This document shows, in pieces, positions 5,246 through 10,838 of a stretch of DNA of 40,900 nt (its first letter is position 1; each line of letters begins with the position of its first letter). The notes beneath the pieces are model-generated. The model searched no databases. It had not been told where the DNA came from and saw only the letters and a program-made list of their open reading frames with translations. Made by a program: the position numbers and the translations under genes. The stretch is from Veillonellaceae bacterium (GTDB lineage: Bacteria > Bacillota > Negativicutes > JAAYSF01), in assembly GCA_012523975.1 (NCBI GenBank), contig JAAYSF010000012.1, positions 1-40,900 on the forward strand. Direction: 5' to 3'.

Positions 5246-5307
5246 CAAAAAAAACCGCAAAACACAAAGGCTGCTGTTAGCTTGCGAAACCTTACGTGCT
5301 TTGCGGT
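5246..5307 (-). terminator. Terminator of the Mg2+ operon
   Basis: On the minus strand ACCGCAAAGCAC (from 5307) pairs with GTGTTTTGCGGT, with an additional AAGG/CCTT inner stem, followed by eight T (5253-5246). It begins eight bases past the transporter stop codon. Confidence 0.8.
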
Positions 5308-5314
5308 CTTATTA

Positions 5315-6574
5315 TCAGAACAAGGAACTGACTGCCTCGGGTGCTATTGTCGAAAACAGCAAAAGGAGCGTCAAAGCAATTAGAATCAACGTAATCATCC
5401 ATACCAGCGTGTTGTACGCCTTAGAGTTGGCATATTCGCCCATAATATTCTTATCACTGGCAATGAGTACCATAAATATGAGGATGGGTGGTAGTAAGAT
5501 GCCGTTTATTACCTGTGAAACTAACATAACAGCGTAGAGTGACAAGCCCGGCCATAGCACCATTCCGGCGCCTAGCGCAATAAGCACAGTGTATAGACCA
5601 AAAAACACCGGAGCTTCCTCATATGTCTTATTGATGCCGTGCTCAAATCCTAACGCCTCGCATACCGCATAAGCAGTGCTCAACGGAAGAATAAACGCAG
5701 CCAGCATTGATGCCCCTAAAAGCCCGAAGCCGAATAACATACTAGCATACTTACCGGCCAGCGGCTCCAGCGCATAGGCCGCGTCTTGGGCGGTTTCAAT
5801 TGTAATGCCGTTCCCATACAGCGTGGCAGCAGTAGCAACAATTATAAAAAAGGCAATAAGCCCGGTAAAAAACGATCCTATATAAACATCCCACCGCGTC
5901 AGTTTGTAGTCCTTGGCAGTAATACCTTTATCGACAACGGCGGCCTGTATGTAAAACTGGCCCCAAGGCGTAATTGTGGTCCCTATTACCCCAACTGCCA
6001 TCAGCAGAAATGCCGTATCGCCGGAGAAGGTTGGTTTGACGGCTGCCGAAAGCACTTCATTCCATGGCGGGTCAATAAGAATACCGGTTATTACATAACT
6101 GAAGAAAGTAAGGCACAGGGCTAAGAAGATTTTTTCAATTCTATCATAGCTGGCCTTGAGCACTAGCCACCAGATTAAAACAGCCATAATCGGAACAGAA
6201 ATGTATTTACTTATTCCAAAGATTTCAAAACTTGTCGCTATCCCAGAAAACTCTGATGCGGTCGTCCCGAGGTTGGCAATAATCAAAATAGCCATAGCAA
6301 AAAAAGTCCATTTTACGCCGAACATTTCTCGAATTAAATCCGACAGACCCCGTCCAGTTACAGCACCGGTCCGTGCCGATATCTCCTGAGCAATAGTCAG
6401 AAAAACAATCCCTGTCAGCATAATAAACAACATTGAATAGCCGTATTTAGCGCCGGCCGCCGAATAAGTCGCAATTCCGCCAGCATCATTATCGGCAAAC
6501 GCCGTGATAATTCCCGGCCCCATTACCGCCAGAAAAAGTCCGAGGCGCTTGCGCCAGCTGCTTAAAAAACCCAT
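5315..6574 (-). CDS. Nramp-related divalent metal transporter, probable Mg2+ type
   Basis: The 419-residue membrane protein has about 11 hydrophobic helices in the LeuT/Nramp fold. In TM1 the canonical DPGN is DAGG (Asp30-Gly33): the Asp is kept, the Asn ligand is Gly. In TM6 the canonical A-T-x-M-P-H is T-T-I-T-P-W (199-204), so the Met ligand that selects transition metals is Thr. Loss of these ligands is the hallmark I recall for Nramp-related Mg2+ transporters (NRMT), as opposed to MntH. The gene begins two bases after the MgtE-like sensor ends, with GGAAGGGGG as ribosome binding site, and the operon is headed by an M-box riboswitch, which independently points to Mg2+. Substrate is inferred from site and context, not measured. 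Confidence 0.85.
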   Translation of the reverse strand: MGFLSSWRKRLGLFLAVMGPGIITAFADNDAGGIATYSAAGAKYGYSMLFIMLTGIVFLTIAQEISARTGAVTGRGLSDLIREMFGVKWTFFAMAILIIANLGTTASEFSGIATSFEIFGISKYISVPIMAVLIWWLVLKASYDRIEKIFLALCLTFFSYVITGILIDPPWNEVLSAAVKPTFSGDTAFLLMAVGVIGTTITPWGQFYIQAAVVDKGITAKDYKLTRWDVYIGSFFTGLIAFFIIVATAATLYGNGITIETAQDAAYALEPLAGKYASMLFGFGLLGASMLAAFILPLSTAYAVCEALGFEHGINKTYEEAPVFFGLYTVLIALGAGMVLWPGLSLYAVMLVSQVINGILLPPILIFMVLIASDKNIMGEYANSKAYNTLVWMITLILIALTLLLLFSTIAPEAVSSLF

Positions 6575-6576
6575 GC

Positions 6577-7866
6577 TTAGCGCCCCCTTCCCATGCGTTT
6601 CCGCAGCGCAACCCAGAAGTGGGCATCGCCTTTGCCGCGTTCAGGGATAATAAGATCAAGAATATCGTCAACCGTAATAATTCCCAGCATTATGCCTTCA
6701 CTATCTACGACAGGCACTGCCAATAGGCTGTATTTGTTGATGATATCAACAACTTTTTGATGGTTATCATCATGCTCTACCGCAACTACCTTAGTATGCA
6801 TAATATCATGCAGATAGGTTTCGGGAGACGCTACAATAAGTTCGCGCAGCGACAGCACACCTTGGAGGTGCTCGGCCTCATCGGTTACAAATATATAATA
6901 AATAGTCTCAGCAACAGGGGCTAATTCGCGCAGGCGATTTATGGTCTGCTCAGCAGTAAGCCGTTCAGAGAAACTTATATATTCGGTAGTCATCAGCGCG
7001 CCGGCCGTATCTTCTTCATATTGCATAAGTTCGCGGACTTCATCGGCATCTTCTTGTTCCATCAGGTTAAGTAAGCCCTGCGACTTTTCAATCGAAAGCT
7101 CGCCAAGGATATCTGCCGCTTCATCCGGCGGCATCTCTTCCAAGATATCGGATGCCCGGTGCTCATCCATTTGCTCAATAATTTCGACCTGGGTGTCAAG
7201 ATCCATTTCTGCTAAGGCATCAATTGCCTGCTGCTCTTCAAGATTATTAATAAAATCAGCCCGACGCTTATAATCCATCTCTTCAAGAATGTTAGCGATA
7301 TCAGCGGGGTGAAGCTGCTTAAGCTGTTGCTTATCCCGGATAAGCTGCAGCACTGAGGTGCGCTTTTCGAGTGGTTTAATATTCTCAAACCCGAGCAGCT
7401 GGTTTTCCCAGCGTTTGAATAAAAATTCCAGCCCTAGCCGCCTGAATAAGCCGCGCACACCAATATCAACAGCTACAAGCAGCATGAACCGCCGCTCGTC
7501 CTGAGCAATCCAGGACAGCGTTATATCATTGACCCTAACCAATCTTGAGCCTTGCAGGTCGATTATTTGCTTATCCAATAACCATTTACTGATGTAAATA
7601 TCTTCTTCTTTGAGGGCAATCCACTTATCTGTCGAAAAATTGCCTGTCAATACTATTCCTTTATCACTTAATCTTTCAACCATATCTATAGGGATCAGTT
7701 CGTGGGTCTTGCTGGCATACTTGATACCAACCACCTGCGGCGAGTTGCCGTCCCATCGCATTGCCATATCTTTTACTTTGCCGACCTTTCGGCCATCGGC
7801 GTCATAAATCGGTTTACCCTGCAGCGAACTGAAATAATATTCTCCAAGAACTGTAACAGCGTTCAT
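6577..7866 (-). CDS. MgtE-type Mg2+ sensor without membrane domain (PRC-PRC-MgtE_N-CBS-CBS)
   Basis: 429 residues, soluble. Order: PRC barrel about 12-80, second PRC-like barrel about 95-165, MgtE_N helical repeats about 190-300 (LHPADIANILEEM, EEMPPDEAADILGEL), CBS pair about 300-425 (PVVDSEGIMLGIITVDDIL). In MgtE the N domain and CBS pair bind Mg2+ and close the channel through a plug helix. Here the five-helix MgtE channel is absent and the protein ends in a basic tail (RKRMGRGR). Start at ATG 7866, eight bases from GGAGG; a GTG at 7884 overlaps that site and is less likely. It is followed immediately by the Nramp-like gene, and the inferred role is Mg2+-dependent gating of that transporter. 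Confidence 0.9.
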   Translation of the reverse strand: MNAVTVLGEYYFSSLQGKPIYDADGRKVGKVKDMAMRWDGNSPQVVGIKYASKTHELIPIDMVERLSDKGIVLTGNFSTDKWIALKEEDIYISKWLLDKQIIDLQGSRLVRVNDITLSWIAQDERRFMLLVAVDIGVRGLFRRLGLEFLFKRWENQLLGFENIKPLEKRTSVLQLIRDKQQLKQLHPADIANILEEMDYKRRADFINNLEEQQAIDALAEMDLDTQVEIIEQMDEHRASDILEEMPPDEAADILGELSIEKSQGLLNLMEQEDADEVRELMQYEEDTAGALMTTEYISFSERLTAEQTINRLRELAPVAETIYYIFVTDEAEHLQGVLSLRELIVASPETYLHDIMHTKVVAVEHDDNHQKVVDIINKYSLLAVPVVDSEGIMLGIITVDDILDLIIPERGKGDAHFWVALRKRMGRGR

Positions 7867-7867
7867 A

Positions 7868-7975
7868 CTATGCCCCTCCTTCACCCCCGGACTCCGGTCC
7901 GCGGTTTATATTATGACCGTGCAGGCCAAAATGCCCTACGCAGCGATAAAAACTATGATAAGGCCCGGAATCCAT
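7868..7975 (-). CDS. Small ORF, 35 residues, first cistron of the Mg2+ operon
   Basis: ATG at 7975 with AAAGGAGGTGG five bases upstream, a near-perfect ribosome binding site, inside the riboswitch-controlled transcript after its terminator. The peptide begins MDSGPYHSFYRCVGHFGLHG and ends in Gly/Glu-rich residues. It has four His and one Cys, which could bind metal. Its TAG stop is one base before the ATG of the MgtE-like sensor, and that gene's GGAGG lies inside this ORF's last codons, so the two are probably translationally coupled. It could be a leader peptide whose translation controls the sensor, or a small functional protein. No known family is recognised. Confidence 0.6.
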   Translation of the reverse strand: MDSGPYHSFYRCVGHFGLHGHNINRGPESGGEGGA

Positions 7976-8022
7976 AAAACCACCTCCTTTTTTATTGTTC
8001 CTTAAATCTTTCGACGAATAAA

Positions 8023-8051
8023 TAAAAGACCCTCTATAATAGAAGGTCTTT
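8023..8051 (-). terminator. Riboswitch-controlled intrinsic terminator
   Basis: On the minus strand AAAGACCTTCTA (from 8051) pairs with TAGAGGGTCTTT, then TTATTTATT. It lies between the M-box aptamer and the 35-aa ORF and is the expected expression platform: formed when Mg2+ is bound, blocking the operon. Confidence 0.8.
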
Positions 8052-8077
8052 CAAACGGCGCGAAAAGCACCCTTGAC

Positions 8078-8235
8078 CTTCCCCCTCGTTGAGCTTTGGC
8101 ACTGAATGACGTAGAGAATGCTCAGCCACATTAAGTAAAACCTTAAGCCGGTAATACCTGTTATACCCATTGGCGTCTTTCGACGTTTCCGGGCAGTGGC
8201 ATATGTTCAATCCAGGAGCCTCACCTAACAGAGAA
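8078..8235 (-). promoter_or_regulatory. M-box (ykoK) Mg2+ riboswitch aptamer
   Basis: The minus-strand RNA carries the conserved M-box blocks in order: GTTAGGTGAGGCTCCT (about 8229-8214), GCCACTGCCCGGAAACGTCG followed by AAAGACGCCAATGGG (8200-8166), AACAGGTATTACCGGCTTAAGGT, and CAGTGCCAAAGCTCAACGAG (about 8104-8085). Order and spacing fit the family described for mgtE and mgtA leaders in Bacillus. When Mg2+ is plentiful the aptamer folds and the terminator at 8023-8051 forms. It controls the 35-aa ORF, the MgtE-like sensor and the Nramp-related transporter. Recognition is by eye, and the match is extensive. Confidence 0.93.
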
Positions 8236-8251
8236 AATATTTGTTTTACTT

Positions 8252-8281
8252 ATTATAGTCCCCGCTTGCCAAGCACGTCAA
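8252..8281 (-). promoter_or_regulatory. Sigma-A promoter of the M-box operon
   Basis: TTGACG (8281-8276), 18 bases, TATAAT (8257-8252) on the minus strand, placing the start about 10-15 bases before the aptamer. The spacer contains a perfect GCTTG-C-CAAGC dyad (8264-8274), a possible operator. Confidence 0.75.
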
Positions 8282-8300: not shown

Positions 8301-8465
8301 TCAATTAAGAATAACAATTCGATATACCGGTAAGGTTAACCCAGTTAATATCAGAACGTATACTCCATAAGCACCGGCCTTGTTTTCATTTTCTTTAAGC
8401 CACTTGGCATAGGTATAGGCGTGAATGGCGGCCAAAACCGCAATAAGCAGCGATATATAATCCAT
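8301..8465 (-). CDS. Small membrane protein, 54 residues, at the end of the ger operon
   Basis: ATG at 8465 with GGAGG four to five bases upstream. The protein begins MDYISLLIAVLAAIHAYTYA and has a second hydrophobic stretch near the C terminus (AYGVYVLILTGLTLPVYRIVI), joined by a short charged loop (KWLKENENK), giving two predicted helices. It begins 10 bases after the gerC stop and is therefore the fourth cistron of the operon. Small two-helix proteins linked to gerABC operons in other spore formers affect germinant receptor function (GerD/GerX-like accessory roles), but no such homology is claimed. Function unknown. Confidence 0.7.
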   Translation of the reverse strand: MDYISLLIAVLAAIHAYTYAKWLKENENKAGAYGVYVLILTGLTLPVYRIVILN

Positions 8466-8475
8466 ACTTCCTCCG

Positions 8476-9744
8476 CTAATCAACCTTGTTTGGTATCGTT
8501 TTCCACATCAGGCCGGTCCGCCGAATTTTAGTTTTAACTTTAACTTGAAATTCAGCCTGACTATAGATTTCAGGCCAATTGAGTTTCATAAACTCGTCGT
8601 ACGTTCGGAAATTTGTTCTGGCCACATACCCGAAACCGACAACATCTGTTTGCATAGCCTGCGTTCTATCCAGCATTTTCATAATGCTTTTTTCCAGCGC
8701 CCGTGTCAGCTGTTCCTCAAGCATCGGGCGGTATTCCTCCATTTCAAAATTGGTGCCGCTCGGCAGATTAGTAATCTCCGCCTCAATAAAGACTTCAGCG
8801 CCTAAAGAAGCCTGCCCATCATTCAGCTCAGCCGTTAGCTTTGGCCGTTCGCCCAGTCGGATATCCAAAGTTACCTGGACTCCGGGCATAACAGGATCTT
8901 CGACACTATAGAACCCTTGTCTGAACTTGCCGCGAAGAATTTCCATCATCCGCGTTTCCTGACTGTTTAAGATGCCGACCATTTTGTCATCATGAAAAAC
9001 CGCTGTGCCCATTATTTCGGCCGGAGTACCCGCCTGTTCCGGCTCTTCTGCATTGCCGACCCTCGGTAAATTCCCGGCCTCAAATTCGTCCACTTTGTTT
9101 GGCGACGTCTTTCGTCTAGTCGGCTCGATTGAGTCTTCAAACTTATTAATTCCGCCTAATGCGATAATAGGCGCCGCGCACCCCTCTTTTAACCTGGTAT
9201 AAAATTCATGCAGATTGGTTCGCGGAAAATAGCTTGATTCATTACTGGCCAATAGCATTGTTTCATAAAACCGCGTTGGCACAACGTCAATTTTGGGGTT
9301 ATGTTTTTTCATAAAGTTTTGCGCGCTGTCATCATTTACTACGATGAGCAATATACTGCCGCGAACTTCCCTAAATCTCATTATCGGCCCTAATATTTGC
9401 CCGAGTCCCTGTTTAGCTAACTCATCACCAATTATAATTATCTTGGTATGCGACCATGAAGGTGCGCGTGCCGCCCCTGAATTTTGCATCGAACGAGCCT
9501 CAGCAAGGGTATCGGCCGTAATGGTACCTAAAATTGTAATGTCCTCGCTCTTGCCCCCCTCTGTCGCCAGCGCCCGCGGAACAGCAATCTGAAAGGTCAC
9601 ATCAAGCTTGCCGGTTTCTCTTTTACTTTTGTCAAACCCTACCACTAGAACAAACGCGTTCTCGTCTGTCTCGCGAGAGCCGAAACATCCGACTGACAGC
9701 AGCGTAAACACCAACAAAAGCAAGGCTAATATCATCCGGCGCAT
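8476..9744 (-). CDS. gerC: Spore germination lipoprotein, Ger(x)C family
   Basis: 422 residues. Lipoprotein C subunit of a GerA-type germinant receptor in the spore inner membrane. The N terminus has a hydrophobic signal ending in a lipobox-like SVGC around residue 19, followed by the family's GSRETDENAFVLVVGFD opening. The C-terminal half (AEVFIEAEITNLPSG) matches the conserved domain 3 region. GGAGG precedes the ATG at 9744 by seven bases. The start overlaps the gerB end by 13 bases, indicating translational coupling. Gene order A-B-C is standard for these receptors; the germinant cannot be deduced. Confidence 0.93.
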   Translation of the reverse strand: MRRMILALLLLVFTLLSVGCFGSRETDENAFVLVVGFDKSKRETGKLDVTFQIAVPRALATEGGKSEDITILGTITADTLAEARSMQNSGAARAPSWSHTKIIIIGDELAKQGLGQILGPIMRFREVRGSILLIVVNDDSAQNFMKKHNPKIDVVPTRFYETMLLASNESSYFPRTNLHEFYTRLKEGCAAPIIALGGINKFEDSIEPTRRKTSPNKVDEFEAGNLPRVGNAEEPEQAGTPAEIMGTAVFHDDKMVGILNSQETRMMEILRGKFRQGFYSVEDPVMPGVQVTLDIRLGERPKLTAELNDGQASLGAEVFIEAEITNLPSGTNFEMEEYRPMLEEQLTRALEKSIMKMLDRTQAMQTDVVGFGYVARTNFRTYDEFMKLNWPEIYSQAEFQVKVKTKIRRTGLMWKTIPNKVD

Positions 9745-10838
9745 TTAATTGCCTCCTTCTTACGCTTTTTCAGCAAAGCGGCAATAATTAGTATTGAGGG
9801 AATAATGTAAAGTCCGATATTAAAATAGGTGGTAATAAGAATGCCGTCGAGCACAATAATAGTAGCAATATCGGGAGGCAACATTGCAGCCTGCGCTAAT
9901 AGTATGCTTGCAATCGGAATGAGCGGCCGCAATGTCGGTAAATTCAGCAGCCGGGTTATAAGATACAGTCCAATATATAGGTTTATGGCAATCGCCAACA
10001 CGCCGGCTATTACCCACAAGACAATAAATAGCGACTCAATTCGTTGGATATAGCGACTTAAATAAACAAGGCGCGCCATTTCAAAAAAAGGCAAAACCTT
10101 TTCTTGGGCCGCCCCGACCCCGAATACCAGGGTAAATACCAGGACGGTTGCCGACTTAAGCATTGAACTTAAACCAATACCAAAAACAGCCGCTATTTTT
10201 ATCGATGACAGCTTTTGAAAGTTAGGAGCTAAAATAATCAGCGCAAGGACTCCGGCTTGGGCGCCAGCTACAAGAAACGCTGACGGAATAACCTTCTCAA
10301 GCCCTGTCCCCTGCCATGGGGCAAGGTTATAGATATTGTAGTATGGCGCTAATAAGAGCAATACTAGAACGAGCGCCAAAATACTAAATGGGGTTATTAT
10401 ATAATTAGCTCTTACCATAGCCTCCAATCCGGCGTAACATAGTACCGCGGCAACGCCTAAATAAACCAAAATTATTACTGAGAATTCAGCTTTGGGTAAT
10501 GCTGTCAGCAACGTATTCTCGGCAAATTGTCGGGAAAGAAGAATGGCATCAAGAAAAAAGAGGCTAATATAATATAAAGTTACTAACCATGCGCCAACCC
10601 GCCCCAACAGTATTTTGCTGACTGTATACAGATCGCCTTTAAAGTTGCTGAGCACATAGCTTAACCCCCACACGATACTAATCGGCGGCACAGCAGCAAG
10701 CAGTGGGATGAGCCAAGCCAGACCGGCGCCACGCTCGACCGTCTGGGCTGGTGTTGTCAAAAAGATAAACGGAAAAGTTAGCATTATGACTAGCGATATT
10801 CCGCCTGCTACTCCCTTATTACCTGGCTGATAGCTCAC
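9732..10838 (-). CDS. gerB: Spore germination permease, GerB family
   Basis: 368 residues, about ten membrane helices, APC-superfamily fold. In GerA-type receptors the B subunit holds the germinant-binding pocket. The family opening GNKGVAGGISLVIMLTFPFIF is recognisable, as are hydrophobic helices through residue 350 and a basic tail (KKRKKEAIK). The GTG start shares four bases (GTGA) with the gerA stop, and the 3' end overlaps gerC by 13 bases, so the three genes form one tightly coupled operon. Confidence 0.92.
   Translation of the reverse strand: MSYQPGNKGVAGGISLVIMLTFPFIFLTTPAQTVERGAGLAWLIPLLAAVPPISIVWGLSYVLSNFKGDLYTVSKILLGRVGAWLVTLYYISLFFLDAILLSRQFAENTLLTALPKAEFSVIILVYLGVAAVLCYAGLEAMVRANYIITPFSILALVLVLLLLAPYYNIYNLAPWQGTGLEKVIPSAFLVAGAQAGVLALIILAPNFQKLSSIKIAAVFGIGLSSMLKSATVLVFTLVFGVGAAQEKVLPFFEMARLVYLSRYIQRIESLFIVLWVIAGVLAIAINLYIGLYLITRLLNLPTLRPLIPIASILLAQAAMLPPDIATIIVLDGILITTYFNIGLYIIPSILIIAALLKKRKKEAIKCAG

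Follow-up and report, generated by a model that had tools for sequence, protein, structure and literature searches.

What does the Mg2+-sensing part of a channel do when it is encoded as a protein of its own, beside a transporter of a different fold? The question is raised by an operon on the minus strand of a 40,900-nucleotide stretch of DNA from a Veillonellaceae bacterium (assembly GCA_012523975.1, contig JAAYSF010000012.1, positions 1 to 40,900; here called the window), in which a soluble protein resembling the cytosolic domain of the Mg2+ channel MgtE is encoded immediately ahead of an Nramp-related Mg2+ transporter (NRMT) and behind an M-box Mg2+ riboswitch. The original prediction, made from the DNA of the window, ordered the operon as promoter, M-box, terminator, a 35-amino acid open reading frame (ORF), sensor and transporter, and all of these parts are present where it placed them.

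Neither the overall arrangement nor the idea of a feedback sensor is new. Most NrmT genes neighbour a homologue of the MgtE N-terminal cytoplasmic domain, many of these operons are controlled by an M-box, and cytoplasmic feedback regulation by the MgtE fragment has already been proposed (Shin et al. 2014, PMC4072509). In the Ca_c0685 operon of C. acetobutylicum, as here, an M-box is followed by a gene for the MgtE N-terminal cytoplasmic domain, for which a feedback role was proposed, and by the gene of an NrmT importer; the C. acetobutylicum fragment is split in two, whereas a single gene encodes it in the window (PMC4072509). The M-box, the MgtE-like soluble gene and the NRMT gene of the window are co-oriented as one unit, like the operons of that study, and the locus is thus a further case of a published arrangement. 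The text of Shin et al. 2014 (PMC4072509) mentions neither a PRC domain nor a leader ORF or hairpin, and a full-text literature search, with subscription journals mostly outside its reach, found no later work on the MgtE fragment.

Here, we add linkage counts, a survey of sensor residues, and the description of a leader ORF with its hairpin. We consider it probable that the locus is an M-box-controlled Mg2+-uptake operon in which the NRMT would import Mg2+, accompanied by a free MgtE-type sensor and by a leader ORF and hairpin that would serve translational coupling.

The soluble protein resembles the cytosolic domain of MgtE

The longest ORF of the sensor gene (7884-6577(-), 435 amino acids) begins at an upstream GTG; most likely the protein starts instead at the ATG at 7866, as in its homologues, and has 429 residues (7866-6577(-)). 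Pfam recognises one PRC, one MgtE_N and one CBS domain, yet the alignment to MgtE spans the complete CBS pair. The second of the two PRC domains that had been proposed fared less well than the first: that stretch gives no Pfam PRC match even at an E value of 5, and a second barrel is visible solely in the AlphaFold2 (AF2) model, so that the protein is best described as a PRC barrel, a probable second barrel, MgtE_N and a CBS pair. The C-terminus is short and basic, and there is no membrane domain. As predicted, the sensor stands without its channel, and the MgtE channel domain (PF01769) was found neither in the sensor protein nor in the host genome.

An alignment with the cytosolic domain of MgtE (2yvy; E 1.1e-44, 39% identity) covers residues 186-416 (435-residue numbering, used here for the window's sensor throughout). 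The top Foldseek match of the AF2 model (pLDDT 82) is the same Mg2+-bound domain (E 1.3e-21), with a TM value of 0.81 on the target. Mg2+-site residues of MgtE, as named in PMC5882242 and given here in MgtE numbering, were mapped onto 39 sensors. The Mg4 residues D91 and D247 are each present in 39 of 39; the Mg6 residue D95 is found in 35, with Asn in the remainder, and the Mg7 residue E59 is acidic in 36. The ATP-stacking F227 is kept in two sensors and is Leu in 36 (L387 in the window), and R187 and Y170 are retained. The sensors share with MgtE the MgtE_N and CBS fold and the Mg4 and Mg6 residues, and differ from it in the missing channel domain, in an added PRC part, and in having mostly lost D226, an Mg5 aspartate, and the ATP-stacking Phe.

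By these residues the clamp between the N and CBS domains is retained, and part of Mg5 and the adenine stacking are lost. This pattern supports Mg2+ sensing and disfavours a simple reuse of MgtE plug-helix gating. Fold model and residues together support the reading of the soluble protein as a free MgtE cytosolic sensor in which Mg2+ would clamp the N domain to the CBS pair; the PRC part, being what was added relative to MgtE, is likely an adaptor. Two loci encode the sensor as a pair of separate ORFs, with the break close to the border of PRC and MgtE_N in one (L025:1109-2289) and inside MgtE_N in the other (L116:202-1501).

The transporter and its predicted substrate

The transporter gene (6574-5315(-), 419 amino acids) begins exactly two bases past the sensor stop, as the original prediction had it. 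Its closest solved structure is EleNRMT of Eggerthella lenta (PDB 7qia; E 1.8e-114 over 399 residues), and MntH structures trail far behind (best E 1.8e-28, others weaker). The metal-site motif, conserved among relatives, reads D30-A-G-G33 and T199-T-I-T202. This agrees with the DxxG-TxxA/T motif that defines NRMTs in the EleNRMT account (PMC8806188); EleNRMT has TxxA where the window has TxxT, and the accessible part of that account mentions no sensor gene. By sequence, the protein is placed among the Mg2+ importers of the NRMT clade.

A transporter that carries mainly Mn2+ or another metal, which the sensor would then report, has been considered. In the A. capsulatum relative, the transporter appeared to prefer Mn2+, rescuing Mn2+ transport better than Mg2+ transport (PMC4072509), and Mn2+ has been placed crystallographically in the metal site of EleNRMT (PMC8806188). 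The NRMT-type binding-site motif and the M-box control speak against a Mn2+ transporter, and C. acetobutylicum homologues restored growth of a B. subtilis mutant deprived of its Mg2+ transporters and did not import Mn2+ (PMC4072509); we hold this alternative to be very improbable. Transport of Mg2+ by the NRMT of the window, as originally proposed, is well supported by the conjunction of NRMT clade, DxxG-TxxT motif and M-box. The host genome encodes, in addition, one CorA and a second, distant Nramp, and contains a single M-box.

A second NRMT-like clade (E about 1e-65 to 1e-84; for example L163:4081-5352 and L164:2452-5376) was never adjoined by the sensor in our sample. At L164 two such transporters stand in tandem.

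Linkage of sensor and NRMT across genomes

Linkage was counted in 398 Bacillota genomes, with an E value of 1e-120 or better taken as a strong NRMT match. The sensor lies directly upstream of all 37 strong matches and of none of 17 weaker homologues. Conversely, an NRMT follows 37 of 41 sensors, and among the other four, one (L158) ends at a contig edge. The two genes usually overlap or nearly abut. In a second set of 51 named Bacillota NRMT loci (from Pelosinus, Sporomusa, Desulfosporosinus, Heliobacterium and others), 36 have both sensor and M-box, seven the sensor without an M-box, seven an M-box without the sensor, and one neither; among 20 distant sensor loci, another 15 have an M-box. 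Metagenome-assembled genomes of Woesearchaeota (L099) and Gottesmanbacteria (L112) likewise contain the pair, and NRMTs of Chthonomonadales mostly stand alone. The pairing is thus conserved well beyond close relatives, as the original prediction required.

Some NRMTs have a shortened companion: at L030 it lacks CBS and comprises PRC with a portion of MgtE_N, and at L031 and L032 PRC alone is recognised. No M-box was found at these three loci, and the part that stays beside the transporter is PRC, not CBS.

Does the sensor act on the transporter?

Control of the transporter by the sensor, through binding, gating or blocking, is plausible, and several observations weigh against it. Seven of the 51 Bacillota NRMTs have an M-box directly before the transporter gene and no sensor between, and five sensors are orphans: L157, which has an M-box, and L159, L160, L161 and L162. 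No natural fusion of sensor and NRMT was found among the sampled loci. Of the Mg5 residues, D226 is kept in only 6 of 39 sensors and D250 in 21 of 39 (S386 and D410, respectively, in the window). With D226 mostly replaced, and with a plug helix that has no channel to act on, the gating route of MgtE is not simply reusable. In the only published co-expression test of such a pair, that of A. capsulatum, which has no M-box, the fragment gave no further rescue, and for growth to be restored by NrmT of C. acetobutylicum its fragment was not needed (PMC4072509).

These data also bear on the alternative that the soluble protein acts apart from the transporter, as a Mg2+-dependent regulator, a chaperone or an assembly factor, and shares the operon for co-regulation only. 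It would accommodate the absence of an added effect in A. capsulatum (PMC4072509) and the orphan sensors, namely one with an M-box and no NRMT, one beside an AA_permease_2 gene, and two behind an era-like gene. Against it stand the presence of the sensor directly upstream of every NRMT in this clade (37 of 37), usually in overlapping or nearly abutting genes, and the occurrence of the pair in several phyla. We judge separate action to be rather unlikely, and favour a sensor that works with the NRMT of its own operon.

Several of these loci are of interest in themselves. The M-box-preceded NRMTs without a sensor (L043, L062, L068, L069, L072, L073 and L075) indicate that some NRMTs are controlled by the riboswitch alone. 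At L160:3523-6909, a PRC-MgtE_N-CBS sensor is followed by a 648-amino acid AA_permease_2 transporter in the place of an NRMT. A separate sensor paralogue lies directly behind an era-like GTPase gene, with no adjoining NRMT, at L161:3612-4937 and L162:3355-4632. Open frames of 840 amino acids in G177 and G416 were considered as fusions and rejected, being in-frame neighbours with a stop codon between them.

The M-box and its expression platform

The best promoter candidate of the region is sigma-A-like (TTGACG-18-TATAAT, 8281-8252(-)) and matches the consensus at 11 of 12 positions. The M-box aptamer that follows (8239-8075(-)) is full length (positions 1-169 of the 169 of covariance model RF00380) and scores 151 bits against a gathering score of 44 (E 1.2e-34). 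Downstream lies an intrinsic terminator of 14 pairs and a U-run (8053-8023(-)). The 3' strand of the M-box helix P1, GAAGGUC (8081-8075), is complementary to GACCUUC (8048-8042) in the 5' arm of the terminator, which matches the standard M-box OFF-switch layout of mutually exclusive terminator and antiterminator. At high cellular Mg2+ the M-box would fold and the terminator could form; at low Mg2+ the 3' strand of P1 would be free to pair with the terminator arm, and the operon would be transcribed. Riboswitch control of the operon is, on this complementarity and the aptamer match, well supported.

Two complete M-boxes in tandem precede a single sensor-NRMT operon at L011-L015, L037, L039 and L048, in Pelosinus and relatives. 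In a genome from the same family as the window, a c-di-GMP-I-GGC riboswitch barely over the Rfam cut-off lies downstream of the operon (L007:75-159).

A leader ORF with a covarying hairpin

Between the terminator and the sensor gene lies an ORF of 35 codons (7975-7868(-)) that begins MDSGP, is preceded by the strong Shine-Dalgarno (SD) sequence AAGGAGGTG (7989-7981(-)), and ends one base before the sensor ATG (TAG-T-ATG). In relatives the leader takes the form AAGGAGGTGGTTTT-ATG-GAY-NNN-GRN-CCN, giving MDSGP, VDSGP, MDAGP, MDSDP and MDTDP, and in most cases its stop adjoins the start of the sensor or overlaps it. The codon-pattern alignment holds 44 sequences, including a wrong match (L170, MDGFR) that leaves the pattern unchanged. 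Asp2 is kept in most leaders, but since our main search pattern demanded both Asp2 and Pro5, neither is independent evidence. A scan for SD-start combinations free of this bias returned a Gly2 variant in L044, and some loci without such an ORF; the leader of L157 also has Gly2, yet its hairpin arms can still pair.

Codons 1-4 (GGAUUCCGG, 7973-7965(-)) pair with CCGGAGUCC (7897-7889(-)), seven bases before the sensor SD AAGGAGG (7881-7875(-)). The mean duplex energy of each 5' arm with its own partner is -17.1 kcal/mol, compared to -14.5 kcal/mol when arms are swapped between loci, and none of 10,000 permutations was as low. RNAalifold recovers the identical helix unguided. In an alignment made by sequence only, pairing reaches 84.5%, versus 55% or less in slid versions. 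There are 18 double-change cells, compared to 4.3 in shuffles; a single change of the Desulfosporosinus type (C-G to U-A) accounts for many of the 18, and the independent covariation events are accordingly fewer. The folding energy of the window's leader alone is ordinary (z -0.04), and since its stability is not unusual, the case for the hairpin rests on covariation and on the own-versus-swapped pairing.

In 36 of 40 non-redundant leaders the reading frame remains open until it comes within 30 nucleotides of the conserved sensor start, and the other two frames do so in 11 and 2 of the 40 (interior-shuffled control, 10.3 +/- 2.6). This frame retention, and codons 3-5, which vary mostly at third positions, could speak for a small protein with a function of its own instead of a regulatory leader, as could the mycobacterial M-box that controls a conserved small ORF (PMC12810186). 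Past codon 5, however, sequence conservation is absent, even between the window and its close relative L006 (8 nonsynonymous and 2 synonymous codons), and a partner segment of the RNA covaries with the start region; a functional small protein seems unlikely. On the former ground, an ordinary protein-coding gene was rejected as the main interpretation.

The leader mostly follows the sensor gene: it persists at L018, L170 and L173, for which no M-box was found, and at L157, which has no NRMT, and it is absent from six of the seven M-box NRMT loci that lack a sensor. A strict tie between the two was rejected, as the seventh, L073, retains the leader.

Taken together, these patterns make the 35-codon ORF not an incidental frame but, by its comparison across loci, part of a conserved leader element, apparently undescribed so far; our literature search found no published account of the ORF or hairpin. 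The likeliest role is translational coupling, in which leader ORF and hairpin would set the output of the sensor. The nearest parallel that we found is the conserved uORF2 behind mycobacterial M-boxes. Like the leader, uORF2 of M. tuberculosis is a small ORF behind an M-box with a conserved N-terminus that includes a proline; the M. tuberculosis M-box differs in having a translational platform with Rho, where the window has an intrinsic terminator, the uORF2 peptide has been called mycobacteria-specific, and the downstream genes differ (PMC12810186). Salmonella mgtQ, which lies ahead of a Mg2+ transport gene, also combines a short ORF, a strong SD, Asp2, a nearby Pro and an overlapping stem-loop (PMC8092293). 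mgtQ encodes 8 amino acids, and the SD downstream of it is hidden within its alternative stem-loops (PMC8092293), whereas the conserved hairpin here does not include the sensor SD, and two loci lack Asp2. A Mg2+-responsive, ribosome-destabilizing peptide of the MgtL/mgtQ type, in which early acidic residues would make translation abort in dependence on Mg2+, is possible. We tentatively suggest a third layer of control, in which the translated leader ORF, with its near-invariant MDSGP-type start, covarying hairpin and a stop that is usually at the sensor start, would let its translation state set the ratio of sensor to transporter, perhaps as a Mg2+ response mediated by ribosome stability.

Flanks of the operon

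The operon probably ends at a terminator-like hairpin, ACCGCAAA...TTTGCGGT, followed by a T run (about 5307-5247(-), read from the sequence). Directly upstream, on the same strand (8476-10838), are spore-germination genes, a GerAC gene by Pfam and an adjoining permease-like gene. Between this promoter and the gerAC-like gene, a 60-codon minus-strand ORF (8301-8483) seems to encode two hydrophobic segments and has no Pfam match.

Discussion

The complete linkage in the sampled NRMT clade and the invariant Mg4 residues narrow the role of the MgtE-like fragment to one question: can an MgtE sensor, once detached, control a transporter with another fold? A positive answer would mean that a single Mg2+-sensing module has been put to use on two unrelated transporters, in cis on one and in trans on the other. 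A second handle is the leader element, a conserved, covarying RNA with a small ORF, placed where the amount of regulator relative to transporter could be adjusted.

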